Source: Tridacna crocea (Eukaryota > Mollusca > Bivalvia > Cardiida > Cardiidae). From it: a stretch of 64,000 nucleotides of DNA. Shown here in pieces: positions 494-63,314 of this stretch; the stretch's first letter is position 1; each line of letters begins with the position of its first letter. The DNA is taken from NCBI GenBank assembly GCA_943736015.1, contig OX031064.1, positions 39,173,361 to 39,237,360 on the forward strand, written 5' to 3'. The translations under genes were made by a program, and so were the position numbers. Below the pieces are notes generated by a model, which was not told the DNA's origin, searched no databases, and was given only the letters and a program-made list of their open reading frames with translations.

Positions 494-3400
494 GTAAGTG
501 TTGATTAGTCATACTTCATTCTATATTATACAATCCCCAGTTTTAACAACCCTGAGTTTTAAGAAACCTTTTGAAAACATTGTGGGAAAAGGAGAAAATG
601 CTGGTAACCAGCATTTTCTCCTTTTTCCATAATGTTTTATACCCTGTCAAAGATAAATTCCATAATTTCAGCCACATTTTAACCCTCTCCCAAACAATCC
701 CTGGTTTTTACGGTGCAGGGAAAGAAGGCTTCTGAAAACACTGTGGGAAAAGAAAAAAAATTCTGGAAAACAGCATTTTTTCCTTTTCCCACAATGTTTT
801 CTACCCTTCCCTGGACAAAAATCATCATTTGTATTACATTTAAGTTGTCGTCTGCAAATGCCTTCAATTTGGTCAGAAATTGTGCCGTGTGGTAAAGGGT
901 TAAACATGTGCAAACTTGAAGAAAACATATTTTGAAAACATTGTAAGAAATGAAGAAAAAGAGGTATGTTACTTACCCTTTTCCAGCAATGTCTTCTACT
1001 CATGTATTACTGGAATGCTAGTGAATTGACCTAAAAATTGGCCTTTGTGCAAAGAATAATTAAACAGCGATATTTATACCATTGGGTAAAATCAGACGGG
1101 ACGGAAATTCTGTTAATGGTTAATGTCAGATTTGACCCCTACTGTCCCATAATCAAAATGAGAAGCTTTTATGGATGTCATAGATCAAGATCTGATTGCA
1201 CTTGTATCGATGTCAGCCGTCACATGTAACCTATTTAACCCATTACCACACAATCACTACTTTTGACGCCCCTGAGAAAGAAGCCTTTAGAAAACATTGT
1301 GGGAAAAGGAGAAAATGCTGGTAACCAGCATTTTCTCCTTTTCCCACAATGTTTTCTACCCTTCACAAAATAAATTTTAATTTTTCAGTCACTTTTATTT
1401 TGTCGTCTGCAAATGCTTTCAATTTGGACCGATGTAAAATTTTGTCATTTGGTAAAGGGTTAAACCAACAAAATCATGTTGTTTCAGGTATTTTAAGTAT
1501 TTTTTAATGACATGATAAATCTATTATTCTAACATGACACATGAATTCGGCTCTATTAACACAATGCAATGAAAACATGGTAAAATCTACGTTATACCAT
1601 AGAGGGTGATGTCATTTTACATAGAGTGATGTCATACTGTATTAAGTCAGTCAGTGAGTTATTCAATGGAATATAATCTGCATCCGCCTTTTTACTGTAA
1701 GTATGATCGTATTTTCCTTTGATTAAGTGTTGGTCATGTTAGAATCGAAATAATCTTCTCTCTATGGTGGTTTATCCTTCAATAAACTGCATTGTGAGCT
1801 ATGAGGCACAATTAATAAACCACTTGGGCTGTAGCCCTCGTGGATTATTTACTGTGCCTCATAACTCACAACTGTTGTTTGTTGAATGATAAACCATGAT
1901 AGATAGAAAGTAGATTATTTCCTAAGCTGCATAAAGAGTTGAAAAATGTTTACATTAATTGTTCTGCATTCAGACAACAACTAAAGCTGAAGCTAAGTTT
2001 GCACAATGATTTAAGGGTGCTGTGTTTGGTAATAGACGTCATTTATTTCATGCCAATTTGTTCAAGTAATATAAAAAATCCCATCATTTGAGTTACATGT
2101 ATATTTTAATTTTTGTTCTACAAATCTTTTAATAATGGATGACTGATATTCTTATCGTCTAGGAAGAGTTAATCCTTTTGAGAAAAAAACAATTATTCCA
2201 TTTTTTTACAACCAAGAAAACATCGTACAAAAGAAGAAAATGATTGTCTGCTTCCAGCCATGTCTTTTAACTTTTCGAGACAAAATTCCATTGTATTAAG
2301 CAAATTCAATTTGCCATCTCCATTTCTTTCAAAATGGATGCTTATATAGGATATTCACAGTCATCTTGGTACAACTTTACACATATTTACAAGTTACAAA
2401 ACTTATCCAGGTGGAAAGATTTGCAGGACAACAAATTCAATATGGTATAATTGTATGATTTGTCTCTAGAAGGAGAGATAAAACAGTGCAAGAAAAGAAG
2501 AAATTGCTGGTTACCATCATTTTCTTTTCTCAAATTTTCTTAAACCCTTTACCAAACAACAAAATTTTAGACTAGTTCAAATTGAAAGCACTTCCAGATG
2601 ACAAAATAAACGTAACTCGAAAAATTGAAATTTGTTTCTAGCAGGGTAGAAAACATTGTGGGAAAAGGAGAAAATGCTGATCACCAGCATTTTCTCCTTT
2701 TCCTAAAAAGTTTTCCGAGAGCTTCTCTTAGTGATTGTTTTGTACTATAACCCTGAGTTTTAAGAACCTTGACAAAGAAGACTGAAGACATTGTAAAGGA
2801 AGGAGAAAATGTTAGTAACCATCTCTTTCTCTTTTCCCACCTTATTTTCCACCTTGTTTGGAACAATGTTTAATTTATCATCTGCAAGTATTTCCAATTT
2901 GGACCCGTTTAAAATTTTGTTGTTTTGTATAGAGTTTAAAGTTCTTTTCCTGACGGCCTTTAAAACTCTGGATTGTGTGTCACAAAGAACAAAACAAAGG
3001 GGAAATAAAGTAAAACTCAGGATTGTCTTTAACCCATTACACAGAATCCCTGCTTTTGACGACCCTGAGAAAGAAGCCTTGAGAAAACATTGTGGAAAAA
3101 GGAGAAAATGCTGGTAACCAGCATTTTTTCCTTTTCCCACAATGTTTTCTGTTATTCACAGTACAAATTTTAAATTTTTTGTCACTTTTGTTTTGTCAAC
3201 TGGAAATGCTTTCGATTTAAACAAGGCTAAAATATTGTCGTTTGGCAATGAGTCAAGCAGAAACTTCATTTCCAATCCACCAAATATGGACTGGACCAAA
3301 TGAAAAGCATTTGCAGACGATAAAAATAAAAAGTCGATCAAAAAATGATTTCTATCTTTGATAGGTTAAAAACATTTTGGGAAAAGGAGAAAATGCTGGT

Positions 3401-6400
3401 AACCAGCATTTCCTCCTATTCCTACAATATTTTTAAAATCGTTCTTTTGCAGGGTTGTTAATCTAAGGATTGTGTGGTAAAAGGTTAAGCGACAGGGAAA
3501 GTAACTTAGATCCAGAAACACACTTGCTGTATCATTGTTTCCTCATGTAGGATTGTGACTCAGTCTCTGATGTGGAGATGATTTGTTCGACACCAAATGT
3601 GCTTCAATACAACTTGACCGGAAAGACAAGCTTTGGGTTTATTTTTGATGGGTTCAAAAGTTACGAGACCATAGACGATGACACAGGGAAAATGACAGTT
3701 CTACAAGAGCCTATCATCAGAGGGTTTACAGAAACCTTTGGGAATACTTTCAATACCGAAATAGAAATAACGGTAAGTCTTTTCCAAATTAATGGTTTTG
3801 CCAATCAAACATTATATTACTTTCTTAACTCATTTCCAAACGACAGAATTTTAGGTTTGTCCAAATCGAAAGCATTTGCAGACTTGACAAAATAGAAGTA
3901 ACTGAAAATTTGAAATTTATTTTGTAAAGGGTAGAAAACATTGTGGGAAAAGGAGAAAATGCTGGTTACCAGCATTTTCTCCTTTTTCCACAATGTTTTC
4001 TGAAGACTTCTTTCTCAGGGTCGTCAAAAGTAGGGATTGTGTGGTAATGGGTTAAGGTAGTAGAGCCCCAATGCTTCTAGTGCAGCATGGAATAAACTTT
4101 CTTTTAAGTTGGTAGATTAGGATTCATATTGATATGATAATTTTTGCAGGATAATAATGCAGTGGAAAAAGCTGTTTTCCATTAACCCATTACCACACAA
4201 TTCCCCCCTTTTGACGCCCCTGAGAAAGAGGCCTTTTGAAAACACTGTTGGAAAAGGAGAAAATGCTGGTAACCAGCATTTTCTCCTTTTCCCACAGTGT
4301 TTTCTACCCTTCCCAGAGCAAATTTTAATTTTTCAGTCACCTTTAATTTGTCGTCTGCAAATGCTTTCAATTTGAACCAGTCTAAAGTTTTGTTGTGTGG
4401 TAAAGAGTTAAGGGATTGAATGATCCCATTTACAATAGCTGGTAAATATGTGTGCTTATCTTAAATGATGGTGCTCTAGCCACAAAGTAATTTAAACAAT
4501 GGAAAGTAGTTCAAAGAAGTAACTCTGTAACAGATGACAAATGTATAGACTTTTTAAACTCTTTACCAGATAAGGTAATTTTGGTCTGCTGAAATTGAAA
4601 TAGTTTGCAGACGACAAATCTAGTGTGGCCAAAAAGTTGTAATTTATATCTGTAAGGCAAGAAAAGACCTGATTTACAGCTAGATTATTTTTTTAAGCAA
4701 CGGTTTCAGCTGTTAGCATATGGTAACTTATTTTTGGGGCCTTATAAAAGGGTGGTTGTATTTTTAGCAATAAGATTATTGGTTTAAACATAGTTGTTTT
4801 ACATCGATTGAGAAACAAGTTTTAACAACTTATACTAATCTCACTCTATTCTGCTTCCTCGGAACTACACCAGTACTCGCGCCGAATATGTGGGCCAATA
4901 AAAAACCCCGAAGTTGACACCCGCTCCTGGGTATCAAACTCAGGATCTTATGGTTACGAGGCCGATGCTCTATCTCACAGCCACGGACACCACAAATAAT
5001 AAGATTATAAGGTCATCATCCTAATTCAGATACAAATTTTTGTAATCAAAACCTATTGGTGATCATAATCATATGACATTCTCATAATGGCAGTGTATAA
5101 AATTCAATGTTAGAGTTCACTAAAAGTGCTTTAAGAGGCTATGTAGGCTATTTTAACCCTTATCCTGCCGAATGAAAATTGTTGGCGACTAAGAAAACAC
5201 ATTTTGCTAAATATACGGGCATTGGGCTGGACTAATGAAACCCAAACTACTAATAAAACAGCTGAGGATGTAGAGCAAGATCAGACTGCATGTATGTGCA
5301 GGCTGATCTTGCTGTACATTCTCCGCAAAAGTCATCCATGGTCGCATACGGCAGGATAAGGTTTAACCCTTTACTCCATAGATACTCATTTGTACGCATT
5401 GCTTGTAGGAGCCTTTGGAAAACATTGTCACAAAAGGTGAAATTGTTCATGATGAGCAATGTTATTTTTTGTCACAATGTTTTCTGTGCTATCAAAAGCT
5501 GTCAAATACACATGAAAAATGGCTTCATCCTTGCAGTTATTTAGTGATAATTAGAGATACCATAGAAATGCCTAATGGGGTAAAGGATTAAAATGTCCTT
5601 CCTTTCTTTTGTCTTTCCACTGCACTGATGATTTGCCAGCTATTTCCATACTGGATTCAGTGTTAAATCATTTTTTAAATTCGGTGAGATTATAAAAATC
5701 TGAATAACCACTTTTATCCATTAACCCTTTACCCCATGAGGCATTTCTATGGTATTTTTAATTGACCCTAAATATCAGCAAGGATGAAGCTGTTTCTTAT
5801 GTGTATATGACACCTTTTGATGGCACAGAAAATATTGTGGCAAAAGGTGAAATTGCTTGTCACGAGCAATTTCACCTTTTGCAACTATGTTTTCCAAAGG
5901 CTCCTACAAACAGTGCGTAGAAATGAGTATCTATGGAGTAAAGGGTTAAAAGGGGTAACCCAACTGAAATGATAAAATATTCCTCAGAATACTAGTAGTT
6001 TTGATACAGTTTTTGCCCCTCTTTTGATTTAGAATCGGCCCAAAAGGAGCAACTGGCAATGTTAACTATATCAAGGCATGTTCTTGTTCATATTCTGTAG
6101 GGGGAGAGATTGAATAGTGCCTGTGTAGATAATTTGACAGTACTGATTGGAGAGAAACAGTGTGACATTAAATCTGTCAGTGAAAGCTCAATTGTTTGCA
6201 AACCTGATGAACCTTTTCCTGGTACCAGTCGAGAGGAGACCTTAGTTGTAAGTTTTTGTACAGTGAAACTGTTCTAGTTTCCTGTTTTGGTTAGTAGCCA
6301 GTTTAACGCTTTACCAAACAATTTCAACAGGTATGGTATGATGCGAGTTTTTAGCTCACCTGAGCACGAAGTGCTCATGGTGAGCTGTTATGATTGTGCT

Positions 6401-9400
6401 GTGTCCGTCGTCCGTGGTAAACTTTTTATCTTGTGTACGCTCTAGAGGCCACATTTTCGGTCGGATACTCATGAAAATTGGTCAGATTGTTTGGCTCGAT
6501 AACATTCCGGACGAGTTTGAAAATGGGTCATGTCGGGTCAAAAACTAGGTCACTAGGTAAAATCTTAGAAAAACGTTGTGTATGCTCTAGAGGCCATATT
6601 TTCAGTCTGATACTCATGAAAATTGTCAGGATGTTTGTCTGGATGAAATCTCGGACGAGTTCGAAAATGGGTCATGTGGGGTCAAAAACTAGATCACTAG
6701 GTCAAATTTTTGAAAAACCTTGTGTATGCTCTAGAAGCCACATTTTCAGTCAGATACTCTTGAAAGTTGGTCAGGATGTTTGCCTGGATGATATCTTGGA
6801 TGAGTTCGAAAATGGGTTATGAAGAGTCAAAAACTACGTCACTTGGTCAAATCTTAGAAAAACCTTGTGTACGCTCATAGGCCACACTTTCAGTCCGATA
6901 CTCATTAAAGTTGGTCAGGATATTTGCCTGGATGATATCTTGGACAATTTCGAAAATGGGTTATGTCGGGTCAAAAACTAGGTCACTAGGTTAAATCTTA
7001 GAAAAACCTTGTGTACGGTCTAGAAGCCACATTTTCAGTTGGATAATCATGAAAGTTGATCAGGATGTTTGCCTGGATGATATCTTGGACAATTTGAAAA
7101 TGGGTCTTGTGGGGTCAAAAACTAGGTCACTAGGTCAAATCGTAGAAAAACCTTGTGTATGCTCTAGAGGCCACATTTTCAGTCAGATACTCATGAAAGT
7201 TGGTCAGGGTGTTTGCCTGGATGATATCTTGAACGAGGTTGAAAATGGGTCATGTAGGGTTAAAAACTAAGTCACTAGGTCAAATCTTAGAAAAACCTTG
7301 TGTATGCTCTAGAGGCCACATTTTCTTTCTAAAACTCTTGAAAGTTGGTAAGGATGTTTGGCTCGATGATATCTCGGACATGTCGGAAAATGGTTCATGT
7401 TGAGTCAAAAACTAGGTCACTAGGTCAAATCTTAGAAAAACGTTGTGTATGCTCTAGAGGCCACATTTTCAGTCGGATACTCATGAAAGTTGGTCAGGTG
7501 TTTGCCTGGATGATATCTTGAACGAGGTTGAAAATGGGTCATGTAGGGTCAAAAACTAGATCACTAGGTCAAATCTTAGAAAAACCTTGTGTACGCTCTA
7601 GAGACCACATTTTCAGTCGGATACTCATGAAAGTTTGTCAGGATGTTTGCCTCGATAAAATCTAGGACGACTTTGAAAATGGGTCAGCCCAGTCAAAAAC
7701 TGGGTCACTAGGTCAAATCTTAGAAAAACCTTCTGTACGCTCTAAAGGCCACATTCTCGGTAGGATACTCATGGAAATTGGTCAGGATGTTTGCCTGGAT
7801 GATAGCTTGAACGAGTTCAAAAATGGGTCATGTCGGGTCAAAAACTAGGTTAAATGTTAGAAAAACCTTGTGTACGCTCTAGAGGCCACATTTTCAGTCC
7901 AAAACTCTTGAAAGTTGGTCAGAATGTTTGTCTTGATAATATCTCGGACAAGATCGAAAATTGGTCATGTGGGGTCAAAAACTAGGTCACTAGGTCAAAT
8001 CTTAGAAAAACCTTGTGTACGCTCTAGAGGCCACATTTTCAGTCCAAAACTCTTGAAAGTTGGTCAGAATATTTGCCTTTATGATATCTTAGACGACTTT
8101 GAAAATGGGTCATGTGGAGTCAAAAACTAGGTCACCAGGTCAAATGTTAGAAAAACCTTTTGTAGGCTCTAGAGGCCACATTTTTAGTCCAAAACTCTTG
8201 TAAGTCGGTCAGAATGTTTGCCTTGATGATATATATAACGAGTTTGAAAATGGGTCATTGGGGGTTTAAAACTAGGTTACCAGGTCAAATCTTAGAAAAA
8301 TCTTGTATATGCTCTGGATGCCACATTTTCAGTCCAACACTCATGAAAATTGGCTAGAATGTTTGCCTTTATAATATCTTGGATGAGTTTAAAAATGGGT
8401 CATTTTGGGTCAAAAACTGGGTCAATAGATCAAATGTTATAAACACCTTTTGTATGCTCTGGAGGACACATTTTCAGTCTGATACTCCTCAAACTTTTTC
8501 ATATTATTTGTCCTGGTGATACCTTGAATGAGTGTGAAAATGGGTCATGTGGAGTCAAAAACTAGGTCAATGGGTCAAATATTAGAAAAACCTTGTGTAC
8601 ACTCTAGAGGCTACATTTTCTGCCTGATACTCTTCAGACTTGGTCAGAATGTTTGTTTTGGTGATGTCTCAAAAGAGTTTGATAATGGGTAATTGTCGGG
8701 TCCAAAAACTAGGTCACTTGGTGAAATCTTAGAAAAACCTTTTGTACGCAGTAGAGGCCACATTTTCAGTCCAATACTCTTGAAACTTGGTCAGAATGTT
8801 TGTCTTATTGATATCTCAAAAGTTTTTGATGATGGGTAATGTCTGATAAAAAACTAGGTCACTGGAAAACTAGATGGTTCATGTTTGGTCATTAGACTCA
8901 GGTGAGCGATTTCAGGGCCATCATGGCCCTCTTGTCTTACAAACTTTTTGGAAAATGGAGAAAAAACTTACTTACCAGCATTTTTTCTAATTCCTGTCAT
9001 TTTTTGGTAGTGTTAGTAAGGTTTCTTCCTTAACCCTTTACCAAATGACAAAATTTTATACTGGTCCAGAAAACAAAATTAACATGACCAAAATATTGAA
9101 ATTTGTACTCGGAGGGTAGAAAACATTGTGGGAAAAGGAGAAAATGCTGGTTACCAGCATTTTCTCCTTTTTCCCCACAATGTTTTCAAATGTGAGAAAA
9201 AGGAGAAACTGATGGTTACCAGCATTTTGTCCTTTTTCTGACAATGTTTTCAAAAAGCTTCTATCTCAGGATTGTAAAAATCAGGGATTGTTTGGTAAAG
9301 GGTTAACAGGTCTTTTTGAGTTTTCCTGTACAATTGTTGCAGCCTGGTTGTACAGTTGGTAGCGTACAAGTTTTGAAAACATTCTTAATCCTTTGCCAAA

Positions 9401-12400: not shown

Positions 12401-15400
12401 AAGCGATAAGCAGACATCCATGTTGGTTTCCATTTTTACTTTCTATTCTATTTTTATCAGAGATGAAATGCTAAGAGCGATTTCATTCGTTGCAGCTAGA
12501 GCTGGCTGCATCCAATGAAAAAGTGTATCGGTGGAATGTAAAAATCAAGCTCAATCCGCTAAGGGTAGAGTAGCGTAGTGACTCGTCAGCCTTGGCTTGC
12601 GAAGATGCAGGGTCATGAAAACCAAGAATTGTTAAACAATCTTAAACGTTCAAGCCAGTAATTTTCAAGATGGTGTCCTTGCACAAGACACTTTAATGCC
12701 ATACCACATGGAGAACACAGAACTAACATGAATGAACTATAAAACAGGGGAAGATAACTGTCAAAATGATTTTGACACGGTTATAACCCTTTTTGACTAA
12801 GAATACCACTGAAAATCAAACACTTACAGCTGAATGTTGGCACCTGTATGCAGTGCTCTTTTCTCCTTTTCTTACAGTGTTTTCAGAGGCCTTTTTCTTC
12901 AGTTTCATTTATTCCTTTCCCAAACAATCCGTGGTTTTTACGACCCTGAGATAGAAGCCTTTTAAAGACATTGTGCAAAAAGGAGAAAATGCTGGTAACC
13001 AGCATTTTTGCCTTATTCCACAGTGTTTTCTACCCTGATGGAAAAAAAATCAATTTTTGAGATTTAATTTTTCGTCTGCAAGTGCTTTCAATTTGGACCA
13101 GTCCAAAATTGTGTTGTTTGGTCAAGAGTTAAACATTGGCTGTTTGGAAACCTTTTAAATATGTTTTCTATATTTGTCACTAGCCCCAGAGAACAGGGCA
13201 CAGCCTAATGAATACCTACAAGGTGGTGTCAATCCAGCAATAGTTTCCATAACAACTGATCTGAAAGATAGTAATGCAGAAAACATCATTAAAGATTTTA
13301 TGGACAGAGTTCGTGCTGACATCAGAAAAGTTCTGAAATCATCAGTTATAGATAGAGGCAATATCAAGCCGGGAAAAATCTGTACAAGAAAAGGTATAAT
13401 TGCTTTGATATTTTTGCTTTAATTCTACAACAAAATTGTGAGTAAAGTATTGACCTAAGTGCTGAATTTCATCTTTAAAAGGGACAAAAATGTGTTTTCA
13501 GAAGTCTTTTTGTCGGGATCATAGCAGCGGTCTTCTCTGTCCAATGATTTAACCCTTTACCCCATAAGGCATTTCCATGGCATCTCTAATTGACCCTAAA
13601 TAACAGCAAGAATGAAGCCATTTCTTATGTGTAAATGACACGTTTTGATAGCATAGCTCGTCATGAGCAATTTCACCTTTTGCCACAATGTTTTCCAAAG
13701 GCTTCTACAAGCAATGTGTAGAAATGAGTGTCTATGGAGTAAAGGGTTTTTTTAGATCCAAGTCTTAATTACTTTGTTTTTCCTCAGCCTCTTTAGTGTG
13801 TTGAGAAAGGAACAAAGCTGGTCAAGGACACAGTATGTTACACAGACAAAAAAGAAAGAAAACTTTCTGAAGTCAAGCCAAGAGACAAATATGTCACTGT
13901 TTGTCTCTCTTTAGTCAACTATGTTATTATGCTCCATGAAACTTTTTTGGGGAGCATATAGTTGCCATGCTGTGCGTACGTATGTCAGTTTATCCGTTCC
14001 TCCCTCAGTCCGTCTGTCCGACCGTCCGTCCGAAGCCATTTCTCCACAACCCCTTAACCATATTTTATGAAACTTCATATCTGAACTCTTTGAAACAATG
14101 CGCAAATATGTCTTTCCTAGTTTTTCAATTTGAGGCTGCGTCACAGAAAAAGTGAGCTTCATGTAAATTTTTTTTTTTTTTCACTAATATCTCTTACATT
14201 AGTGCTCAAAAGTTCATGAAATTTCAAATCTGAGCTTGTTGGAACATTGTTCAGATTACCTCTTCCCTGGTTTCTCAATTTCAGGCTGCATCAAGGAAAA
14301 AGGAGGCTTCATGAAAAAATTGTTTTATGATACCTCTTTCCCGGTTTCTCAATTACAGGCTGTGTTGCAGAAAACGGAGGCTTTGTGTAAAAAATTGTTT
14401 TTCTCAAATGTCTCCTACATTAGAGCTCAAAAGTTCGTGAAATTTCGAATCTGAACTTGTTGGAACATTGCCCAGATACCTCTTCTATGGTTTCTCAATT
14501 TAAGGCTGCGTGACAGAAAAAGGGGGCTTCATATAAAAATTGTTTTATGTAATATCTCCTACATTACTGCTCAGAATTTCATGAAATTTCGAATTTGTAT
14601 TATAATTCAAAAATGCCACAAACTGCACACCCTTTGTATTTATTCCAGTTATGCAGTATTGTTTTAAAGGAAAAGGAGCTTAAAGGGGGCTTAATGGGCT
14701 TTGTGCCCATACAAGTTTGTGATGGCTATTACTCCAAAAGTATTAGAGCTATTAATGTCAAAATTCATAAACAGATAGATCTTATTGATTAATAGAAAAT
14801 GTAATTTTTCCATCTTTCAAGATGTGTTAGGGGAAAAGGGGGCTTCATGGTAGAGTTAGAGTCACTTTTTAACCATTATCTTGCTGGTCAAAATTTCACA
14901 TTTCAGTTACTATCCTCCCCAAAAGAATTTTGCTGTTAGTCTGTCCATTCATTTGTTGACTTAAATATATATTGGGAATATCTCTAAGATAATAATTACT
15001 TTTCCAATTCAATTTATGGGGACATGAACAGGTCTTTTTAGGATAAAAGAAGTGAATTGTATTAATTTCATACATTTTATGACAAGCACTTGTCCGGGGG
15101 AGCATAACCTGTCTCTGACGGCTCTTGTTTTTGAATCTCTGCAATGACTTGGGTGTGTATTTTACAACCATTCTTCAGAACTTTCTAAATTTGGATGTAA
15201 TTGGTACAGCACAGAAGAATGGAAGCACCACTGATCATTTCTAGATATGGATAATGGACTGTCTACTATTAGCACACATTGTCATAAATGCAATAGCACT
15301 AGCCCTCTTGAGAGAAACTCAGAGGATCATTTACTGAACACAAAATCCCAATAATTAGGTACTGGAATTTATATTCTAGCTTGCAAAGAAAGCAACATTA

Positions 15401-18400
15401 TACATTATAAATGTTGCTTTCTTTGCAAGCTACATGTAGAAAATAAATTCCAGTACCTAATTATTGGGATTTTGTGTTCAGTAAATGATCCTCTGAGTTT
15501 TTGCTTTCTTTGCAAGCTAGAAAATAAATTCAAGTACCTAATTATTGGGATTTTGTATTCAGTAAATGATCCTCTGAGTTTTTGCTTTCTTTGCAAGCTA
15601 GAAAATAAATTCCAGTACCTAATTATTGGGATTTTGTATTCAGTAAATGATCCTCTGAGTTTCTCTTAACCCTTTACCAAACAATCCCTGACTTTTATGT
15701 CCCTGAGATAGAAACCTTCTGAAAACATTGTGGGAAAAGGAAAAAATGACGGCAACCAGCATTTTCTCCTTTTCCCGAAATGTTTTCTATGCTGCTGGAA
15801 ACATAAGTCAATTTTTGAGTTACCTTTTTTGTGTCGTCTGCAAGTGCTTTCAATTTGGAACAGTCTAAAATTTTGTTGTATGATAAAAAGTGAACTCTTT
15901 ACCACACTCACACTGTCTCTGTCATTTTCTCTGTCATTGTCAGAATATTTAACAAACATAACTTTACAAATGTTGCCTCTTTGCAAAAATACTTTTGAAA
16001 TCAGCCTGTTGTAGATTCAAGGTCTTAATTTCTTTATGGATTTAACCCTTTCCCAGACAATCCTTGGTTTTTACGATCCTGAGAAAGAAAGCCTTTGAAA
16101 ACATTTATGGAAAAGGAGAAAATGCTGGTAACCAGCATTTTCTCCTCATCCCACAATCTTTTCTATCCTTTCTGAGTAAAATTTTAATTCATAACTTGTA
16201 TTTATTTTCTCGTCTGCAAATGTTTTCAATTTGGATTAGTCCAAAATTGTGTTGTTTGGTTAAGAGTTAACCCTTTACCCTATCAGGCATTCCTATGGTA
16301 TCTCTAATTGACCCTAAATAACAGCAAGGATGAAGCCATTTCTTATGTGTATATGGCACTTTTCGATAGCATAGAAAACATTGAGACAAAAGGTGAAATT
16401 GCTCGTGACGAGCAATTTCACCTTTTGTCACAATGTTTTCCAAAGGTTCCTACAAGCAATGCGTCAAAATGAGTATCTATGGAGTAAAGGGTTAAAAAAC
16501 GTAATTTTTAAAAGTGATTACAAGTATTGTCCCTTTGCAACAATGCTTCCAAAATCAGCCTGTGGTAAATTCAAGGTCATATGTCTTTATGGATTTAAGA
16601 AAGGCTATTTAACAATTTTTAATTACAGGTACAAAAACGAGGGTTATCAATGGTACCTTTAGTGCCAAATCAGGGATTGCGGGGCAACGAATTACGATCA
16701 AAACCCTTGTTACTCCATACTCAGGTATGTATATACATGTACATATTCAGCTCAGTGTACTAAATGGCAACACTTTTAGACTTTTCCAAAACGATTTGCA
16801 GCAAACCAATTGAATCTTTACCAAAATGGCAAAATTGAAAGCATTTGCAGATGACAAAATAAACGTGGCTTAAAAATTGAAATTTGTTTTGAGAAGGGTA
16901 GAAAACATTGTGGGAAAAGGAGAAAATGCTGGTTACCAGCATTTTCTCCTTTTCCCACAATGTTTTCAAAAGGCTTCTTTCTCAGGGATATCAAAAGTAG
17001 GAATTGTGTGGTAAAGAATTAAGTCTTGTAAAAATAGACTGGGTTTGTCTTAATCAGTTACCAACATTCAGTTAAAGGCCATTGGAAAACATTGTGCTAA
17101 AAGGAGAATATGAATGCAACCAGCATTTTCTTACTTTGTCACAATGTTTTTTTTTTTACCATTTCAAAGACAGTAACCATCCTTTGGCTTTATGTAAATT
17201 GTCAGATGCAAAAGTTTTCAGTTTGGTGATTCTGAATTTTTGTTGTTAGGTAAACACTTTTGGGGTCTGTCCATCAGTTAGGTTTCAGTGTGGCTGTTTT
17301 TGAAAATAAAGAGCTAAAGTACTGTCATGACCCTGTATTTATATGACACTCTTTTTATTTTGAAAAAAAAAAAGATTTTTTGTGATATCCCTGTATTTGT
17401 TGAAGATACATTCTTCAAGTACAGGTTAGTTGTTCACTCCATCAAAAGAAGAACTCATGCCATTAGGTTAGGTAACCCTTAAAGAGGGCATTATACCAAT
17501 TTTCAGCCAATTGTAACTCATTTTACCTTTATCTTATCGAACTATACACTCTAGTAGATTCATATGAAGATCATCCATTCTGTCGCATGACTATATTTGA
17601 CCTTTGCCCTATGTCTAATGAGGTAAACGAAGAAAAATGGAGGCTTCTCTGTGGCAGCCTCGATTTTCAGACGGAGTTCGTGGCCTGTATGCAAAATACA
17701 CCATATCCGACTCTAGGCGGAAACCAACGATAAATTCCTGTGAGGCACCGCCGCTGTTTACAGCTTCAATCATCAGCCAGTTTTCTTCTTACTCATGATT
17801 GGTTTCTAATACAAATCTTAGTGTTTCTTTTTTTTCAATGTCAGTAATTTATCCATGTTTACACAAAGGGCTGATTTCTGTGCCATTCTAAATTCTTTGA
17901 AATTTTAACAGCGTTTTTGTTTACCGGCTGTAGACAGGCATCTTTAAGTATTTTTGAGACAGTTATACTCCCAATTTGAACTGTTACTTTACTTGAACGG
18001 TAGATCAATATCATGAACTTAGTTTATATCATCATACATTTTGGAAAGGTATTTGATAGTGATAGATGTTCCTGTCTTATGTGTATATTTTAGCTTGAAA
18101 ATTTATAAATAATTGATAAGTAGTTTTATCTACTGTTGATATATAGAGAGTGGTGAGATACCGGAGTGGTTGCAGAAAGGTCTTCTAGAGAGCACCAGGT
18201 TTCGGGATTACATCCATGACAACGTGCTTCAGTGTCGCGGAGTATCTGTAGATGAAAGACAAGTTTATGTGTTATATCCGGAGATGTCAAACAGGACCCT
18301 AAAAGATTACCTTACTTCTGCACCAGAGGTAATGTTACACATAGACTACAAAATTTTAGCCATGTTCAAATTGACAGCATTTGCAGACAACAATAATTAT

Positions 18401-21400
18401 TTCAATGTGGCTCATATGGTGTAGTTTTTCTTTGTTGAGATAGAAAACATTGTGGGAAAAGGAGAAAATGCTGGTTACCAGCATTTTCTCCTATTCCCAC
18501 AATGTTTTCTACCCTATCAATGAAAAAGTTAATCACTTGAGCCCTGTCAAAATTGTCCCAGGGGCAAAATTATGCGTTCAAATTGGACTAGTTCACAGTT
18601 TGCTGTGTAGTAAAGGGTTAACCCTTTCCCAAATGACAAATTTTTAGACTCTTTCATTTTTAGCTCAACTGGACACAACATACTCAAGGGGGAGCTTTTT
18701 GGATCACCCAGTATCAGTCGTCAACATTTCTTTAAACATCAACTCCTCCTAAACAGCAAGGCCAAGTGGACCAAACTTGGCTGGAATGTTCCTTTGGAGG
18801 TCCTCTGTAAAAACTGTTCACAGAATTTGATTCCGTCAAAAACTCTGGTTGCCATGGCAACCAAATGGAATTTTTAAGAAATTCTTTAAAAATCTTCTTC
18901 TCTGAAACCGCTGGCCAGATTTTAAAATAATATCACGGAGATGTTCCTTAAGTGAACCTTTTCAAAAGTTGTTCCTGAAATTTTGATCAATTAAGAAACT
19001 TGGCTCTGGTGATTGGGGGCTACTTGCACTATACAGAAATGAAGAAATTCTTAAACATTCTTGACATTCTTCTTCTCTGAAACTGATGGTCAGCTTTTGA
19101 AATGACTTTTACAGGTGACTTTTTGAAAATTGCTTGGCAAAATAATGATTTTGTTTCCAATGTTTCAATACCTCAAAAAAAAAAGGCTTTGGTCCTCTCA
19201 AAGATTCAGATGAGCGATCCAGGGCCATCTTCGCCCTCTTGTTACATTAAACACAGATGAGAAATTCAGGATTGGTACAAAGGAGCCAAATGAACAAAAG
19301 TTCTGTAATAGAGCAGGAGACATTGTGAAAATAGGAGAAAATGCTAGTCACTAGCATTTTTATGCTCCCCGAAACATGTCGGGGGGAGCATATAGTCGCC
19401 ACGCTTTGGGTATGTCCATGTGCCCGTCTGTCCATTTCTCCACAACCCCTTGACCAAAATTTATGAAACTTCATATCTGAACTCCTTGGAACAGTGCACA
19501 AATATGTCTTTCCTGGTTTCTCAATTTGAGGCTGTGTCACGGAAAAAGGGGGCTTCATGTAAAAAATTCTTTTTCACTAATATCTCCTACATCAGTGCTC
19601 AGAACTTTGTGAATTTCAAATCTGAACTCATTGGAACATTGCCCAGATATTTCTTTCTGGGTTTCTAAATTACAGGCTGCATTGCAAAAAAAGGGGGCTT
19701 CATGTAAAACATTATTTTTCTCCAGTATCTCCTACAATAGTGCTCAAAAGTGAAATTTCAAATCTGAACGTGTTGGAACATTGCCAAGATACATGTACCT
19801 CTTCGCCGGTTTCTCAGTTTCAGGCTGTGTCACGGAAAAAGGGGGCTTCATGTAAAAAATTGTTTTATGATACGTCTTTCCAGGTTTCTCACTTACAGCG
19901 TGTGTCGTGGAAAAAGGAGGGCTTCATGTAAAAAAAATTCTTTTTCTGTAATATTGGGAATATCTCTTAAGATAGTAATTGCCTTTTCACTTCAATTTTT
20001 GGGGGCATGAACAGGTCCTTTTAAGATAAAAGAAGTGAATTTATATTAAATTCATACATTTTACGACAAGTATAACCTGTCTCTGACAGCTCTTGTCTCA
20101 TTTTGCAACAAAATTTTCCAAAGCTGTATTCCACAGGGTTCTGAAAAATTGTTATTGTTTGTTAACCCATTACCACCCAATCCCTACTTTTGACGACCCT
20201 AAGAAAGAAGCCTTTTGAAAACATTGTGGGAAAAGGAGAAAATGCTGGTAACCAGCATTTTCTCCTTTTCCCACAATGTTTTCTATTCTTCACAAAACAA
20301 AGTTCAAATTTTCAGTCTCTTTTGTTTTGTCATCTGCAAATGCTTTCGATTTGGACAAGCCTGAAATATTGTCGTTTGGTAATGAGTTAAAGAGTATACA
20401 GTTGCTTTTGTGGACAAAGTAGAACAACATAAGACAGCACAGAAACAATATGTGTACTTTATCATTGCTTTGAACTTGTAAAATTGTGGTTTAATGCATA
20501 TGCAAAAAGATTTGACCCAGATCAGCCTGTTAATCCAAGCAAACTGACCTGGGTTGAAACATTTTGCTATTGGTAAATGTTCTACATGTCAAAGGATAGT
20601 TTACCTAATGATTCAGTCAGCTGTTTGATAAGATGGATTTTTATACCCAGCAAAACGAATGTTTTCGGGTGTATGTTGGAATCAGCCTGTCTGTGTGTGT
20701 GTGTGTGTGTCCATGTGTCTGTGTTTCTTTAGTCTGTCTGTGTACAAAATACTAGTAGCAGGGGTATTAACAGTACGTAGACCCCTAATAGAAAACAGCT
20801 ATTACCACAATAATATTATCCTGCAAAATTTGCTATGATTAAAAAAGAGTGTTATTGTACTGCTCTAACCAGGCCACTTTTCCCATTTTGTCTTTTCTAG
20901 AATTATCATTTATAAATCTAAAACCACTAAATTTTCATTACAAAGAGAGATACTAATTACCTTCCATTTCTGGAAACTAACAAAAGTATACAAATAATTT
21001 CAAAATAGGCATAAAGAAATTCCTGGTCGGTTAAAAATGTGCAAAAGTATTATACCTGTATAAACCCGTATTTATCATCTATCAAGAAAACCTTATGCAA
21101 TGCAGCAATAGAGGTATAATAGCGGTTTACTACCTTAAGTCGGGCGCAGGACATTTGAGTGAAATTGAAAATTTTTGTAATGGACATTTGAGCGACAGTT
21201 TTGGTGGTCATTTGAGCGACAGATTTTAACGTCCACCTGTATTTCCAGGTGGACATTTGAATGAACAATTTTCACCGGTTAAAAGATGTACTTCAAAGGG
21301 ATGTAAAGCAAGAATACGCACTGATTCTTCTGCAAATATGATCTTACAACAAAAAAATTCACATGATCATGAAACAGACGATAGACAAATCGAGAGGCAT

Positions 21401-28340: not shown

Positions 28341-28350
28341 TCCATTTATT

Positions 28351-49400: not shown

Positions 49401-52400
49401 AAAATAGCAAAATCTTTGAAAATCATCTTCTCTGAAACTAGAAGGCTTAGAGCTTTGATATTTGGTATGTAGCATCTCCTAGTTGACCTCTACCAAGATT
49501 GTTCATATGATGCCTCTGGGATCAAAACTGGCCTTGCCCCGGGGGTCACAAGTTTGACCCATAGGAACAAAGAAGGAAAACTTTCAAAATCTTCTTCTCT
49601 GAAACTAGTAGGTGCAGAGTTTTGATATTTGGTATGTAGCATCTCCTAGTGGACCTCTACTTAGATGGTTCATATGATGCCCCTGGGGTCAAAACTTGCC
49701 CGCCCCGGGGGTCACAAGTTTGAAACATAGGAACAAAGATGGAAAACTTTCAAATTCTTCTTCTCTGAAACTAGAAGGTGCAGAGCTTTGATATTTGGTA
49801 TGTAGCATCTCCTAGTGGACATTTACCAATATCGTATATATGATACCCCTGGGGTCAAAACTGGCCTGCCCTGGGGGTCACAAGTTTGAAACATTGTAAC
49901 AAAGAAGAAAAACTTTAAAAATCTTTTTCTTTGAAACTAGAAGGCGCATAGGTTTGAAATTTGGTATGTAGCATCTCCTAGTGGACCTCTACCAAATTTG
50001 TTCATATGGTGCTCCTGGGGTCAAAACTGGCCCCTGCTCGGGGGTCACAAGTTTGAAACATAGGAACAAAGAAGGAAAACTTTAAAAATCTTTTTCTCTG
50101 AAACTAGAAGGTGCAGATCTTTGATATTTGGTATGTAGCATCTCCTAGTGGACCTCTATCAAAACTGGCACCGCCCAGGGGGTCACAAGTTTGAAACATA
50201 GGAACAAAGAAAGAAAACTTTAAAAATCTTCTTCTCTGAAACAAGAAGGAGTAGAGCTTTGATATTTGATAGCATCTGCTAGTTGACCTAGACCAAGTTT
50301 GTTCACATGATGTCCCTGGGGTCCAAACTGGCCCAGCTTCGGGTTCACAAGTTCGAAACAGGAATAAAGAAGGAAAACTCAAAGTCGTAGAGCTTTGATA
50401 TTTCATATGTAGCATCTTCTAGTGTACCTCTACCAAATACGATACAATGATCCTGGGGTCCAAACTTCCCGGCCCTGGTGGTCACAAGTTTGAACATGGG
50501 AAAAAAAGAAGGAAAACTTTGAAATGCCTCTGTTCTGGAAGAAGATGGAAACTTCGTATGTGTGTTCCTTATGATAGTCTGACAAAAACAATATTTTACC
50601 TTTTTTTCATTAAATGTCATCTTATTGAAAAAGGGGGCTTGATGTAAATTTTCATTATGGACCAATATCTCTTTCACTACAGGTCAAAATGTAATTAAAC
50701 CTTATCTTGTTGAGCAACAGACGATAGTTATTTGATTTTATTTCATGAAACGACAAGTTATCAAAACAGGGGACTAAATGTATAATTTCATTATGGACCA
50801 TTTACAGTCAATTTGCCCATCCATCCACCTTGGCGGATATCTTCTAAAGTCCTTGGCATTTATGAAACTTCAAACATTTTTTCCCTAGGATAGTCTTTTG
50901 ATACAGTTTCTTCTGTAAGATGTGTCACAGAAAAAGGGGTTACCTTTCACATACTGGACTTGTTGAGCCCCGATAGATTAGTCAGTAATGGTTATGAGCT
51001 GTTAGTCTAGGGTTCCCAGTTTGCGCTGGCTTGATTACTGTCTCGGCCAACATCCTTTGGCATTTGATCAAAAGTTACTGAGACAAGTCTCATTTGCGTC
51101 TTATCGATGAGCAAATGATGTTTTAATCTGTCATTTGACCATGATTTTGACCAGGAAATTAATGCCTGGCCTTCTAAGTTAATTCAATCCCTTACCATAC
51201 AATCCTGACTTTCAATGACCTGAATAAGAAAGGTTGTGAAAGCATTTTCGGAAAGGAAGAAAATGCTTTTTGCACAGTTACATACCCTGTCAGAATTATT
51301 TGGCTTGGAACTTTGATATTTGGTATTTATTTTCATTGTAGATCTTTACTGCTTAGTACTCAGGTGAGCGATACAGGGCCATTATGGTCCTCTTGTTTCC
51401 AACCGTGTTTTCAAGAGTTGTCTTCTTTGGGGTCATTGGAAGTCGGAATTGTATGGTGAAGGGTTAAAGAATCTTTTAAATTGAATGCATATTTAATACT
51501 GTTAGATGATTTGTATTGTTTCAAAGGGTAGAAAACAGAGACAGTAAAGCGAAAATCAGGCTTGCTATCAGCAATATTTCCATTTTCCTCAATATTTTCA
51601 AAAGACATTCATTTCAGGCATGGTTAAACATGGACTTGATTGGTAAAGGCTAAAATAGTTTCAACAAATATCACACAAATTTACATTTGCTCAAATGAAT
51701 ATATTATGAGGTTATTTAACATGCTTGGGTACAATACTGAATTCTATTGGATGAGTACACTGCAGAACCAGTCTATATTTTGGACAAGGCGATTTATTTC
51801 ACACTTCCGCATTGACTTTTAAAGTAAACAACAAGTATAGGGTCATTTCAATTTGAATAATTGAAAAAAAAAAAATCAAAACTTATCAAAAGAGGGGTTT
51901 GAAGTTGCATTTTTTTAACAAAGGACTTCAGTAGACAACTCTTCAGGTCCAATATCAATGTTAGGGACTCAAGCCTCGTTTTGAAAAAATCCGTATTGGA
52001 CTCAAGCCTCGTTTTGAAAAATCAGTATTGGACTCTAGCCTCGTTTTGAAAAATGCATATTGGACTCAAGCTTTGTTTTAAAAAATCTGTATTGGACTCT
52101 TGCCTTGTTCCGAAAAATCCGTATTGGACTCTACAGCATGTAATATAGTCCAAGATATTCTGTACTCACATGGTATTATTAAAGCGATTTCATTGGACGA
52201 TAAATAGTAGGTGTGAAATAAAGAAAGTTAGTTTGGATCTTATCTTATTTCAGTTGATGATGGTCCCCAACTAATGATATCTCCCACAAAACAGTCAGTC
52301 ATTTCAGGGGAGGTAAATGTAGCTAGATATGTAAATAGGCTACTCTCACCCTCCTTCGACACAGAGGATATCATGACAGCAACGACAGTGGATGAGTGGC

Positions 52401-52648
52401 TGGATACCATTGACAATCAGATATTCAATGGAAATTCTAAACAAAAAGCAGCTGCTCTCAAAAGTCTAAATGTGCGGTTAAAGAAAAATGATTGGATTGT
52501 TGGATCAGAAGTATCATTGGTTGATGTTGTCATGTGGTCATCTTTGCACCAATCACAGCAAGTAGCAGGTGCTCCAGAATATGTTCAAAAGTGGTTGAAG
52601 GCTTGTGCAAATGTCCCTTTCTTCAAAAATGCATTGACTCTGATTTGA
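43298..52648 (+). CDS. AIMP2: AIMP2, multi-tRNA-synthetase complex scaffold, complete
   Basis: Join of 43298-43411, 44423-44623, 48597-48822, 52254-52648: 936 bases, 311 residues and TGA (human AIMP2 is 320). Residues 1-38 hold two short repeats, MYSVKPF and MYKVKNF, matching the lysyl-tRNA-synthetase-binding N-terminus of the family. Exon 2 gives a leucine-rich coiled coil (DPLAQLEKQQDAIFARLADL) and a Ser-rich linker. Exon 3 begins the thioredoxin-like part with ICADPEKPPLSLFILFELL and ends LSVIWKK. Exon 4 is the GST-C-like domain with EVNVARYVNRLL and WIVGSEVSLVDVVMWSSL. AIMP2 is a cytosolic scaffold joining synthetases in the complex. Intron 2 is about 4 kb and holds a 3-kb transposon; intron 3 about 3.4 kb with another. 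Recognition is firm across the whole length. Confidence 0.93.
43412..44145. other. AIMP2 intron 1, left part
   Basis: Only a MITE-A right-end remnant near 43735-43830 was recognised. Confidence 0.5.
44146..44376 (+). mobile_element. MITE-A copy
   Basis: TTAA at 44146 and 44373; ends 46 bases before AIMP2 exon 2. Confidence 0.85.
44423..44623 (+). CDS. AIMP2: AIMP2 exon 2
   Basis: 67 codons in phase 0, acceptor TTTCTTTCAG, donor GTATTT. Coiled coil then Ser/Lys linker. Confidence 0.9.
45974..46396 (-). pseudogene. 140-codon frame inside the 3-kb transposon, unknown
   Basis: Longest frame in the element. The C-terminal half (SWYVDLILEVDN, VILLCKEKKISFHWSSKED) resembles a small beta-rich module at the C-terminus of some transposon-encoded proteins in animals, from memory only. 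It starts with a plain ATG and no exon structure is visible, so it may be the last exon of a decayed gene. Confidence 0.4.
46420..46686 (+). mobile_element. tRNA-derived SINE with 13-bp target duplication
   Basis: tRNA-like head with A box TGGCTCAGTGGTGAGCG and B box GAGTTCGATACCC, a body with GTCGGTGGCTTTGG, and a tail GTTAAACCCCAATACAAC. ATTTTCGATTTTC flanks it at 46407-46419 and 46687-46699. It sits inside the 3-kb element, so it is younger. The head has no proper acceptor stem, so it is not a tRNA gene. Confidence 0.88.
48597..48822 (+). CDS. AIMP2: AIMP2 exon 3
   Basis: 75 codons plus one base, acceptor CTTTCAG, donor GTAAGT. Encodes PPLSLFILFELLKKEFKVLA and SSVAHVDASL, matching the human PPLSLLVLHRLL region. 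Confidence 0.92.
48892..49012 (+). mobile_element. tRNA-derived SINE, family 2
   Basis: Starts GTGGTGTCTGTGATCGTC, B-box-like AAGTTCAATACC, ends AGATTAGTATAAGTTGT; it lies 70 bases past AIMP2 exon 3. Confidence 0.65.
49025..51467 (-). mobile_element. MITE-A copy split by a CTCACCTGAG element
   Basis: Left part 49025-49172 (GCAGATAGCAAATTGAA to AACCAGTAGTTTCTC), right part 51397-51467 ending TTAA 51464. Confidence 0.65.
49173..51395 (+). mobile_element. CTCACCTGAG element with internal array
   Basis: Starts GCTCACCTGAGCATGAAGTG and ends CAGGTGAGCGATACAGGGCC...TCCTCTTGT. About seven units of about 160 bp (TTGATATTTGGTATGTAGCA, CATCTCCTAGTGGACCTCTA, GGGGTCACAAGTTTGAAAC). No transposase. Confidence 0.8.
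51966..52135. repeat. Minisatellite, about five units of 33 bp
   Basis: Unit GGACTCAAGCCTCGTTTTG then AAAAATCCGTATT, ending 118 bases before AIMP2 exon 4. Confidence 0.85.
52254..52648 (+). CDS. AIMP2: AIMP2 exon 4
   Basis: Two bases plus 130 codons and TGA, acceptor TTATTTCAG. GST C-terminal-like helices. Confidence 0.92.
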
Positions 52649-52720: not shown

Positions 52721-52811
52721 TCTTGCTTGATCCCTATGCTAAATCTCAAGTTTGTAAGCCTATGCATCATGCACCAATATTAGATACTTCCTGTTTGTAA
52801 GGCATAATCAT

Positions 52812-56119: not shown

Positions 56120-56355
56120 TATAAACTCTTTCCCCAAAGTAAAAATGTTTGACTTGACAAACAACATAATAGATGTAGCTGAAATTATAATATGTGTCTT
56201 TGACAGGGTTGAAAACATTATGGGAAAAGGAGAATGCTGGTAACCAGCATCATCTTCTTTTCTCACTATTTCTAGTAATGTAAATGTTGTTCTCTGCAAG
56301 TATTTTCAATCTGAATGGGTTAAAATGTTGTTGGTAGGTGAAGAGTTTGGCATCA
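56120..56355 (-). mobile_element. MITE-A copy, degenerate
   Basis: Loop CTGGTAACCAGC with a shortened left arm (GGAGAATGC). Confidence 0.6.
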
Positions 56356-56614: not shown

Positions 56615-56840
56615 TTAAGCCTTTACCCCATAAGGCATTTCTGTAGTATCTCTAATAGACCCTAAATAACAGCAAAGATGAAGCTGTTTCTTATGTGTAT
56701 ATGACACCTTTTGATAGCATAGAAAACAATGTGGCAAAAGGTGAAATTGCTGGTCACGAGCAATTTCACCTATTGCCACAATGTTATCCAAAGGCTCCAA
56801 CAAGCAATGCATAGAAATCAGTATCTATGCAGTGAAGGGC
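56615..56840 (+). mobile_element. MITE-B copy
   Basis: TTAA at 56615; hairpin GTGAAATTGCTGGTCACGAGC has one unpaired loop change. Confidence 0.82.
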
Positions 56841-60385: not shown

Positions 60386-63314
60386 CTACAGAAATGAAAT
60401 TTGCTCTTTACTTTATACATTGAAAGGAATAACACTGTAACAATATTTTTTCTTCTTCAAAATTATGTAAGACCCTGGTACCTCAATTGGAAGAGTGCAG
60501 ACCTTGAAACCAGTGAGTTCATCGTTCAATTCCCTAACTCTGCATGGGCGATCAAAAATAGTCTTTGCCATAGGATTCATTCCTCACTGCTGAACATTGT
60601 TTCAAAAATGTTCATGCGTAAAAGCAGCCAATGCATTGGGAAGCATGAAGTGGGCAGTGCTGCTTAGAGAAAATCATAGAAAGCATGGACAGGGGTTCTA
60701 TACACTGTGATACAACAGTGATATAACTGAAATAAAGTTGAAAAATGACAGTAAACCCCCCTTTTGCAACAGGTGTAATTTATGTGTATTTTTCACTTGA
60801 AAAGTCATAAATTACTATTAACAATGAGAGCCACAAATAAAATCAAGTAAAGTCAACAAACATTTTTAACCTAGGAAATAAGACCCAAATAAGTGCACTT
60901 TCCTGGTTGTTGTTATTATAAACACATTTCAGTGTGGTGGATGCTGCAGATCAAAGATCAGACTGCATCTATTGATCAGTCTGATATTGATCTATACAGG
61001 CTACAAAGGAAAACTATAGCTCTGAAACAAGCTTTAAAGCTCAACAAAAATTAAGTCAGTAAATACCGTAAATGGAACATATGTTGACATGGACATATTG
61101 CAACTCTTTCTTTATTTAGAAACTCCTCTAAACAAACCGGACATGTCTGAAAATAAATGCAAATCAAATTCATTAAGTTGGAGCAAACTATTGGCTAACC
61201 CTTTACCACACATTCCCTATTGATAATGGCCCTGAGAAAGAAGCCTTTGAAAACATTGTGGGAAATGGAGAAATTGCTGGTTACCCGCATTTTCTCTTTA
61301 ACTCTTTACAAACAGACTGGTACGGATTAAAAGCGCTTGCAGCCAACAAAATAAAAGTAGCTCAAAAATTGAAATTCATTTCCAACAGGGTAGAAAACTT
61401 TGTGGGAAAAGGAAAAAAATGCTGATTACCAAAATTTTCTCCTTTTCCTACAATGTTTTCAAAAGGCTTCTATTTCAGGGTCGTAAAAACCTGGGATTGT
61501 TTGGTAAAGGGTTAACTGAGATATTTTCTACCCTTTCCAAGATAAATTTTAGCTTTTGAGTAAGTTATGTCCTTTTACCACACAACTTCTAGTTTTAATG
61601 GCCCTAAGGAAGAAGAAAACTGAAAACATTAAACTGAAAAGAAGAAAATACTGGTTGTCAGCATTTTCTCCGTTCCCAACAATGTTTTATACCCTATTGA
61701 AGTTTAATGTCCCAAAGATGAGTCAAAATTGTTGTCTGCAAATCCATTCTATTTGGACCAGTCAAATTTTTTCTGATGTGGTGAGGAGTTAAGCATTAAA
61801 TGAGGTGTAAATGAGGGGACTTATCGTTGAAAGGAAAGAAAGCATTGATGCCAGAAAAATAGTACTAGCTAGAGCATTCTCTGCTTTTTCAACAAAGTTT
61901 TCAATTGCTTTCTTCTACAAGGTCATCACTTCTAAACCTTCAATCTAAAACTACACACATTTATTTTAAATCCCCTGTGAACCAAGATTTATGATATTTA
62001 TCAATCCTTCTTTAAAAGCTGTTAATGAAGACCTAACCAATACCTTTGCCACACTGTGCATAATTCTTTAAGTTGTTGAGTTGTTTGTTTGAAAGGAATC
62101 TAAAACATCCTTTAAGTTATAATGTGACAGCAAGTGCACCTATCCATGCATTTCTGGATTTTCTTCTACCAAAACTTAGCACAATTATCTTTCCAAGGGA
62201 CTGGCTGCTTTCCCATGTCACCACTGTCAAAGGAATGGTTAATGGTAAGAGAGGAATAAATCTCGTTGCAACAACTTTCATCAACAATCAGAAAGAAATT
62301 CAATGAGCTGGGGATCTAAACCAGCATAGCCCTGGTTAAAGTCATCTATGTACACCAAGAATTTCCTGTGCTGTAATGAGCCGCTCTACAACAAATATAG
62401 TAAAGTGTTTCTACTTACATCATTCTGGAATTTCTTCCTCTTACTCACAGTAAAAATAATCTGCAAAAAAAAAAAACTCAGGAGAGATGACGTCAACATT
62501 TCCTGATTTGAACTCTTTACCAAAGTTTTAACAACCATGGGAAAGAAGGCTTTCGAAATCATTGTGGCAAAGCAGAAAATGTTGGTATTCTGCAATTTCT
62601 CTCTTTTCCACTATGTTTTCTACATTTTCAAAGAGAAGTTCCATAACTTGGCTTACATTACAATTTATCATCTGCAATTAGTTTGGGCATTGGTAAGTCA
62701 TTTTTTGTTTGGTTTTGCTAGGAATTAAACATAAGAACTTAACATTTTTTTTTTTCAAATCTAAAACCTTACATTGGTATATCTCTACAACACAATCCCA
62801 AGTTTTAACGACCCTGGGGAAGAAGTCCTTTGAAAACATTGTAGGAAAAGGAGAAAATGCTGGTAACCAGCATTTTCTCCTTTTCCCACAATGTTTTCTA
62901 CCCTATCACATACAGAAATCGTCTGTTTAGCTACATTCAATATGTTGTCTGCAAATGCTTTGAATTTGGTCTAGGCCTGGATATTGTCGTTTGGTAGAGT
63001 TAAACAAACTACTTATAACATGATAATGACAGTCTCAAAGGCTGATCTTGCTCATCACAGGATTTGAACTCAGAACCTATGATGTGAGAGATCAATCTTC
63101 TTATAACCCTGCAACACTGTCTCTCAAATATGGAACTTCATACAGCTGAAACAAACGGAACTGAAACTATGATTAAGGACAGTTAAAAAAAAAAAAACTT
63201 TTAAAAATCACAAAACTATGAAAGATTTTATTTTTGGTCTATTATACACCAAATCATTATTTTATAAGACTTACCTTTTTATATCCTCTCTCTTGTTTAG
63301 CTTGTCTTTTGAGT
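60247..63314 (-). CDS. RNF24/RNF122-like RING-H2 E3 ligase (3' part, four exons)
   Basis: On the - strand the exons are 63314-63275, 62460-62419, 61146-61067 and 60385-60247. They join in phase to about 99 residues and TGA; the N-terminal exon(s) lie right of the window. Reading order: RLKRQAKQERGYKK (cytosolic side of the membrane span in RNF24/122), a lysine-rich linker (SKRKKFQND), then a full RING-H2: CPVC, CPCQHMFH, CLLEWL, CPMC. The eight zinc ligands are all present, with the CPCxHxFH and CLxxWL spacing of RNF24/RNF122. A 25-residue Ser/Thr-rich tail ends VDSTV. The family is a membrane-anchored ubiquitin ligase of endomembranes. Only the last exon is long enough to show as an ORF; the RING is split between the last two exons. 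Confidence 0.8.
60462..60740 (+). mobile_element. SINE family 3, fullest copy
   Basis: tRNA-like head with A-box-like TACCTCAATTGGAAGAGTGC and B-box-like CGTTCAATTCCC, then AAAGCAGCCAATGCATTGGG and a tail TAACTGAAATAAAGTTG. It lies in the last intron of the RNF gene. Confidence 0.7.
61067..61146 (-). CDS. RNF24/122-like exon: first part of RING-H2
   Basis: 26 codons plus two bases, TCPVCLEEF to CPCQHMFHL. Acceptor TTTTCAG. The donor GTATTT is chosen over an earlier GTTCCA because it keeps the second histidine and the right spacing. Confidence 0.8.
61196..61570 (+). mobile_element. MITE-A copy interrupted by another MITE-A
   Basis: Left part 61196-61297 stops in the right hairpin arm (CATTTTCTC) and resumes at 61516 with ATTTTCTACCC. 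Confidence 0.75.
61298..61515 (-). mobile_element. MITE-A copy inserted in the copy above
   Basis: TTAA at 61298 and 61512; loop GCTGATTACC. Confidence 0.8.
61562..61792 (+). mobile_element. MITE-A copy, divergent
   Basis: TTAA at 61789; loop CTGGTTGTCAGC. Confidence 0.7.
62090..62400 (-). mobile_element. SINE family 3
   Basis: Contains GGACTGGCTGCTTTCCC and ATCCATGCATTTCTGGATTT; it ends about 20 bases from a coding exon of the RNF gene. Confidence 0.6.
62419..62460 (-). CDS. RNF24/122-like exon: linker
   Basis: 14 codons (IIFTVSKRKKFQND) between TTTTTGCAG and GTAAGT. A SINE lies immediately beside its donor. Confidence 0.65.
62507..62730 (+). mobile_element. MITE-A copy, degenerate
   Basis: TGAACTCTTTACC left end, loop GTTGGTATTCTGC. 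Confidence 0.6.
62785..63003 (+). mobile_element. MITE-A copy
   Basis: TTAA at 63000; hairpin intact apart from one base; left TTAACCC lost. Confidence 0.8.
63275..63314 (-). CDS. RNF24/122-like exon: juxtamembrane
   Basis: 40 bases: one to complete Arg, then 13 codons LKRQAKQERGYKK. Acceptor TTATTCAG, donor GTAAGT. Confidence 0.7.

Follow-up and report, generated by a model that had tools for sequence, protein, structure and literature searches.

As far as the excerpts of its description go, the closest known system to the element analysed here is that of the CMITE families of Acropora corals, which are piggyBac-like MITEs of about 100 bp with a TTAA duplication, CC[C/T]T ends and an organization in tandem arrays, and for which approximately 1600 copies were estimated in A. 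millepora (PMC2872659). In the same excerpts, the CC[C/T]T end is given as a hallmark of piggyBac, and the internal region is reported to be conserved between CMITE families and is suggested by the authors to have a role in transposition (PMC2872659). Two further groups are relevant for comparison, again from excerpted text: the Kolobok elements, described as having an RR terminus, with T2-MITE ends carrying an AGGRR motif (PMC6004289), and the hairpin MITEs of wheat that yield microRNAs (PMC8862332). MITEs are also stated to occupy a considerable share of bivalve genomes, in the part of the source drawn on here (PMC10294476).

The window, i.e., the whole 64-kb stretch of Tridacna crocea DNA that was analysed, contains a very abundant short element that fits a piggyBac-type non-autonomous DNA transposon (MITE). 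An iterated nhmmer search, seeded with a full-length copy bearing TTAA at both ends (1235-1463, + strand), gave 195 rows, many of which were the hairpin of the element matching both strands, and these were reduced to 111 matches by keeping the best orientation at each place. The 111 non-overlapping matches, full and partial and from the two families described below, lie between positions 528 and 63684 and cover 29% of the window (18,731 bases), with 47 of them nearly full-length. The same profile had 0 matches in the controls, which were five first-order Markov sequences and the reversed window. The original prediction that one short element fills the window is therefore borne out, as is the high density, but its count of about 70 copies was too low. 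The predicted length of 225 bp is also correct, since the consensus of the main family (family A) has 229 bp including both TTAA, that is 225 bp plus one TTAA, divided into 55 bp on the left, a 67-bp hairpin and 107 bp on the right. Typical traits of a MITE are present, namely short length, inverted ends of about 13 bp, uniform size and high copy number. A length of 229 bp is too short for a transposase, although some of the listed ORFs overlap copies; the longest listed stop-to-stop ORF in the window has 184 amino acids. No earlier description of this element was found among the matches listed in the open-access literature, as judged by title or by the start of the abstract.

The ends of the element consensus are TTAACCCTTTACC and GGTAAAGRGTTAA, and with the target included it reads TTAA-CCCTTTACC at the start and GGTAAAGRG-TTAA at the finish; as exact 13-mers on the + strand, TTAACCCTTTACC and GGTAAAGGGTTAA occur only nine and seven times, respectively. 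The TTAA columns are conserved, with an exact TTAA at 45 of 66 well-preserved ends, and among 49 copies the next base outward deviates from the majority in a fraction of 0.57. In eight places two copies abut and have one TTAA-like tetranucleotide in common (six TTAA, one CTAA and one TTAT), including a family A copy followed by a family B copy at 16043-16494, which meet at a single TTAA, and in a ninth adjacent pair the copies are separated by 7 bp. The family A copy at 40037-40262 (+ strand), whose own left end is now TCAA, is inserted within an older dispersed repeat, and a paralogous stretch of this repeat (41796-41878) reads through a single TTAA with no copy inserted and thus represents the empty site. 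The conserved TTAA, the CCCT start, the eight common junctions and the one empty-site paralogue thus uphold the original assignment as a piggyBac-like MITE, the element having both the TTAA target duplication and the ends beginning with CC[C/T]T. Membership of Kolobok was rejected, since the purine-purine terminus after TTAA given for that group in the excerpted text is absent, and the element starts with CCCT; the TTAA target is what it has in common with Kolobok and the Xenopus T2-MITE. It likewise resembles the autonomous transposons of the piggyBac superfamily in the TTAA target and CCCT-type ends, but no transposase was seen in the window, where the Pfam scan took in 10 of the 53 listed ORFs.

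Several copies are nested or rearranged. From the pattern of matches, the copy at 61295-61514 appears to have been inserted inside the hairpin of an older copy (61196-61563 overall), which is now split into 61196-61299 (model positions 1-105) and 61521-61563 (model positions 114-156). At 9119-9251 one copy has two tandem hairpins with a period of about 65, suggestive of a duplication of the palindrome, and in the copies at 18344-18620 and 56124-56347 both flanks resemble the right flank, in opposite orientations around the hairpin. In place of TTAACCC, the left ends of the copies at 36231-36450 (+ strand) and 38102-38302 (- strand) share the unusual junction GAAAACCTTACC, and its presence in two separate copies raises the possibility that a composite element was mobilised as a whole.

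The central hairpin is exact (33 + 1 + 33) at 20217-20283, within the family A copy at 20163-20389 (+ strand), and at 1290-1356 (+ strand) in the search seed, likewise a family A copy, where the arms continue without mismatch to 35 bp; perfect pairing was thus confirmed at both of the examples originally named. Folded as single-stranded DNA, the hairpin at 1290-1356 has an energy of -37.2 kcal/mol (z = -14.45), and one family B hairpin reaches -33.8 kcal/mol. However, perfect arms of at least 33 bp around a one-base centre are found at only three places (centres 1323, 16934 and 20250), the remaining one being the hairpin at 16901-16967 of a family A copy on the - strand (16828-17021, model positions 1-194 matched), against 89 places in the window matched by a hairpin-only profile, partial ones included. 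The claim that many copies keep the hairpin perfectly is therefore not sustained. Across 45 family A copies the number of mismatched pairs per hairpin ranges from 0 to 14, and the arms have 0.147 mismatches per pair, or 0.073 per site, which is approximately the divergence of family B (0.065-0.070 per site). In these 45 copies, 202 cells are changed in a single arm, 12 are changed in both arms and unpaired, and 16 are changed and paired. Paired changes within family A are barely above expectation, both as cells (16 versus 10.1 in an age-stratified comparison, with 38 of 2000 replicates as high) and as distinct events (11 versus 8.1 expected, with 126 of 1000 as high). The one-arm changes show no excess of G-T over A-C (52 versus 58), which is evidence against RNA pairing, and no Rfam family was matched at the gathering threshold; pairing at the RNA level was set aside on these grounds. 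At pair 12, a left-arm change from G to T is common to several copies and uncompensated, indicating that strict perfection is not required even in source elements. Twenty-one old hairpins, picked by us, keep between 13 and 29 pairs out of the 25 to 33 scored. Hairpin patterns gave 0 matches in collections of viral contigs and genome contigs, where animal genomes are not expected, and a literature search with the hairpin sequence returned one 14-base stretch, in a paper that by its title concerns a zebrafish gene.

Besides family A there is a second family, B, with six copies, at 5364-5590 (+), 5722-5948 (-), 13550-13748 (-, with the hairpin partly missing), 16268-16494 (-), 56616-56839 (-) and 63460-63684 (+). 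Its consensus, built from five of the six copies, has segment lengths identical to those of family A (55 + 67 + 107). Between the two consensus sequences the interior of the left flank is identical at 13 of 32 positions, a level reached by 2 of 31 rotations, and the right flank at 36 of 93, a level reached by none of 92 rotations, so that identity over most of the flank is just 39-41%, whereas the hairpin is identical at 57 of 67 positions. The terminal inverted repeats (TIRs; 24/27) and the ten bases to the left of the hairpin (8/10) are also alike. Five hairpin pairs differ between the families, and four of these (pairs 14, 21, 26 and 31) are exact partner swaps on both arms; at pair 13, A has G-C where the B consensus has G-T, and two B copies have A-T. 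In the B copy at 16268-16494, four pairs of the hairpin (16374-16440) are swapped compared with A and pair 13 is compensated as well, and a copy with A-like flanks (31969-32189, + strand) has a hairpin with the B swaps at pairs 26 and 31 together with a compensated pair 8. Among 44 hairpins, chosen from the 89 for an exact length of 67 bases without indels, two-sided changes affect 37 cells, compared with 8.3 in shuffles and 9-14 in slid alignments, a count that is inflated by relatedness and to which five B copies contribute many of the two-sided cells. The conservation of the hairpin, with swaps on both arms, against the loss of most of the flank argues that the hairpin was constrained in the copying lineage. 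The four compensated A-B changes are all partner swaps and not transitions, although changes of the swap type make up just 49 of the 202 one-arm changes in family A.

With respect to the CMITEs, as represented in the excerpts, the element is alike in being small and piggyBac-like, in its TTAA and CC[C/T]T ends and tandem arrays, and in the conservation of an internal region between families, which in the CMITEs is better conserved than the ends. It differs in that its TIRs are conserved too, and in that what is conserved is a palindrome of 67 bp in which pairs have changed on both arms, whereas the printed 60-base CMITE core gives no better fold than its shuffles do (z = -0.65), with no long hairpin there. 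In comparison with the wheat MITEs, going by the excerpted account, short length and hairpin potential are common features, but the long perfect hairpin of the present element lies in its interior.

The decay of hairpin and flanks is different in the two families. Relative to their consensus, the 45 family A copies differ at 268 of 2984 hairpin positions (0.090) and at 1271 of 5886 flank positions (0.216), a ratio of 0.42 (copy bootstrap 0.34-0.49), and their TIRs (208/1168; 0.178) are above the hairpin. In family B the corresponding counts are 26/374 for the hairpin, 53/816 for the flank and 11/156 for the TIRs, with a hairpin/flank ratio of 1.07 (copy bootstrap 0.72-1.39, from six copies only); if sites are treated as independent, the family A ratio of 0.42 can be rejected for B (p = 0.0003). 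Better preservation of the hairpin than of the flanks, as originally proposed, is thus seen in family A and not in family B. The TTAA, taken as fixed at insertion, was used as a clock: in family A, 26 of 264 bases have changed (0.098; 66 well-preserved ends of 39 copies), compared with 615 of 3369 A/T sites in the flanks (0.183; p = 0.0003) and 98 of 1586 A/T sites in the hairpin (0.062; p = 0.03). The slower decay of the TTAA than of the flanks means that some of the flank divergence is older than insertion, and the deficit of the hairpin relative to the clock allows for weak protection after insertion or for a context effect. The flank columns are overdispersed (χ2/df of 4.95 versus 2.25 in the hairpin), and one alternative base is present in at least 10 copies in 26 of 134 flank columns versus none of 67 hairpin columns; flank columns are also linked, in 25 of 1391 pairs versus 8.2 when permuted (maximum 17 in 60 permutations). 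Overdispersed and linked flank columns are as expected from many diverged source elements.

Other measures in family A are less clear-cut. The slope of hairpin on flank change across copies is 0.85 (0.44-1.69), compatible with equal decay, whereas trees with separate branch lengths give terminal hairpin/flank ratios of 0.44 (all-column topology) and 0.51 (flank topology), although these trees are starlike and not decisive. In nearest-neighbour pairs the hairpin change is below the flank change (ratios of 0.38-0.58), and by a mixture fit, which does not separate change in the source from change after landing, the flanks have the higher base-level rate. We attribute the terminal-branch, near-pair and flank-baseline results to source lineages unsampled in 64 kb, though they could reflect protection. 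The copies starting at 1236 and 20163 have 23 flank and 0 hairpin differences, and 4 of the 23 are private alleles, which is compatible with either reading. The number of singletons per cell (0.0161 in the hairpin and 0.0165 in the flank) seemed to prove that hairpin and flank decay equally in A, but was dropped, since private changes go unseen in crowded flank columns, which makes these counts unreliable. Landed copies probably do not maintain their pairing, because family B decays equally, the TTAA clock is slower than the A flanks and the A arms drift apart, while some of the family A results allow weak protection. The original suggestion that pairing itself is maintained therefore does not apply to landed copies, but does agree with what is seen in the amplifying elements, where the hairpin sequence is conserved and both arms change together.

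Our preferred reading, to which we assign a probability of about 0.6, is that the hairpin is kept by amplification success in the source elements, with little or no protection of the hairpin in landed copies. The conservation of ends and hairpin between families, the loss of most of the flanks and the even decay in family B point to selection among elements for the ability to amplify. In such a process only copies with a good hairpin would have kept amplifying, the hairpin serving as a cis-acting DNA part used in excision, replication or insertion. It would act most likely by folding, as extrusion of a hairpin or cruciform could fold the element and help to draw its two ends close to each other; another option is that the palindrome provides a two-fold symmetric binding site. 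After landing, the hairpin would have little or no protection. More tentatively, and as something we regard as possible rather than probable, this may be a eukaryotic cut-and-paste MITE that requires a long central DNA hairpin to amplify. Selection acting between elements would then preserve the pairing of the stem in copying lineages, through compensated changes, for as long as it takes to erase most of the flank, and landed copies would lose the hairpin neutrally. In a non-autonomous transposon, the needs of amplification can rarely be separated from decay after landing. Two families with little in common beyond ends and hairpin make that separation, pointing to the central palindrome as needed for success and offering a simple way to test why certain MITEs attain enormous copy numbers.

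Three other explanations were weighed against this one. If the hairpin were protected in landed copies, by host-side selection (for example, as a source of small RNA) or by arm-to-arm repair, its lower divergence in family A, the larger flank differences of the closest A pairs, its position below the TTAA clock, the terminal-branch ratios and the higher fitted flank baseline would all follow; we nevertheless consider this unlikely, given the equal decay in family B, the predominance of single-arm changes as the A arms drift apart, and the lack of both a G-T excess and an Rfam match at the gathering threshold. Pair changes on both arms could also arise by a copying accident, in which one arm is rewritten from the other in source elements, through template switching at the palindrome and with no selection for pairing, and the palindrome does rearrange, as in the duplicated hairpin of 9119-9251 and the right-hairpin-right copies at 18344-18620 and 56124-56347. 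Arm rewriting alone, however, would not slow change, yet the hairpin has changed less than the flank (57/67 versus about 40% identity), and an accident of this kind seems improbable. The stem might instead be a symmetric protein-binding site, conserved for its sequence and not for its folding, with half-sites that shift with the specificity of the protein, an explanation that suits the sequence conservation of both arms and the absence of signs of RNA pairing. Against it, arms of 33 contiguous bp are longer than is usual in a binding site, and four of the five A-B pair differences are exact partner swaps, which keep the pairing but alter the sequence that would be recognised, making this very unlikely.

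Regarding the genes and other repeats of the window, ten MITE matches lie between the ORFs at 37011-37565 and 41094-41468. The latter ORF matches the PAAT-like family (PF14958, E = 4.1e-14), and the ORF at 39556-39840 matches the same family below the curated cut-off; no Pfam family was matched by the ORF at 37011-37565, the membership of which in the PAAT-like gene is assumed. A gene piece at 52232-52648 corresponds to a GST C-terminal-domain protein (Pfam). Large minisatellite arrays are present at 6430-8863, 28571-29125 and 49410-50162, with periods of approximately 145, 151 and 166 bases.
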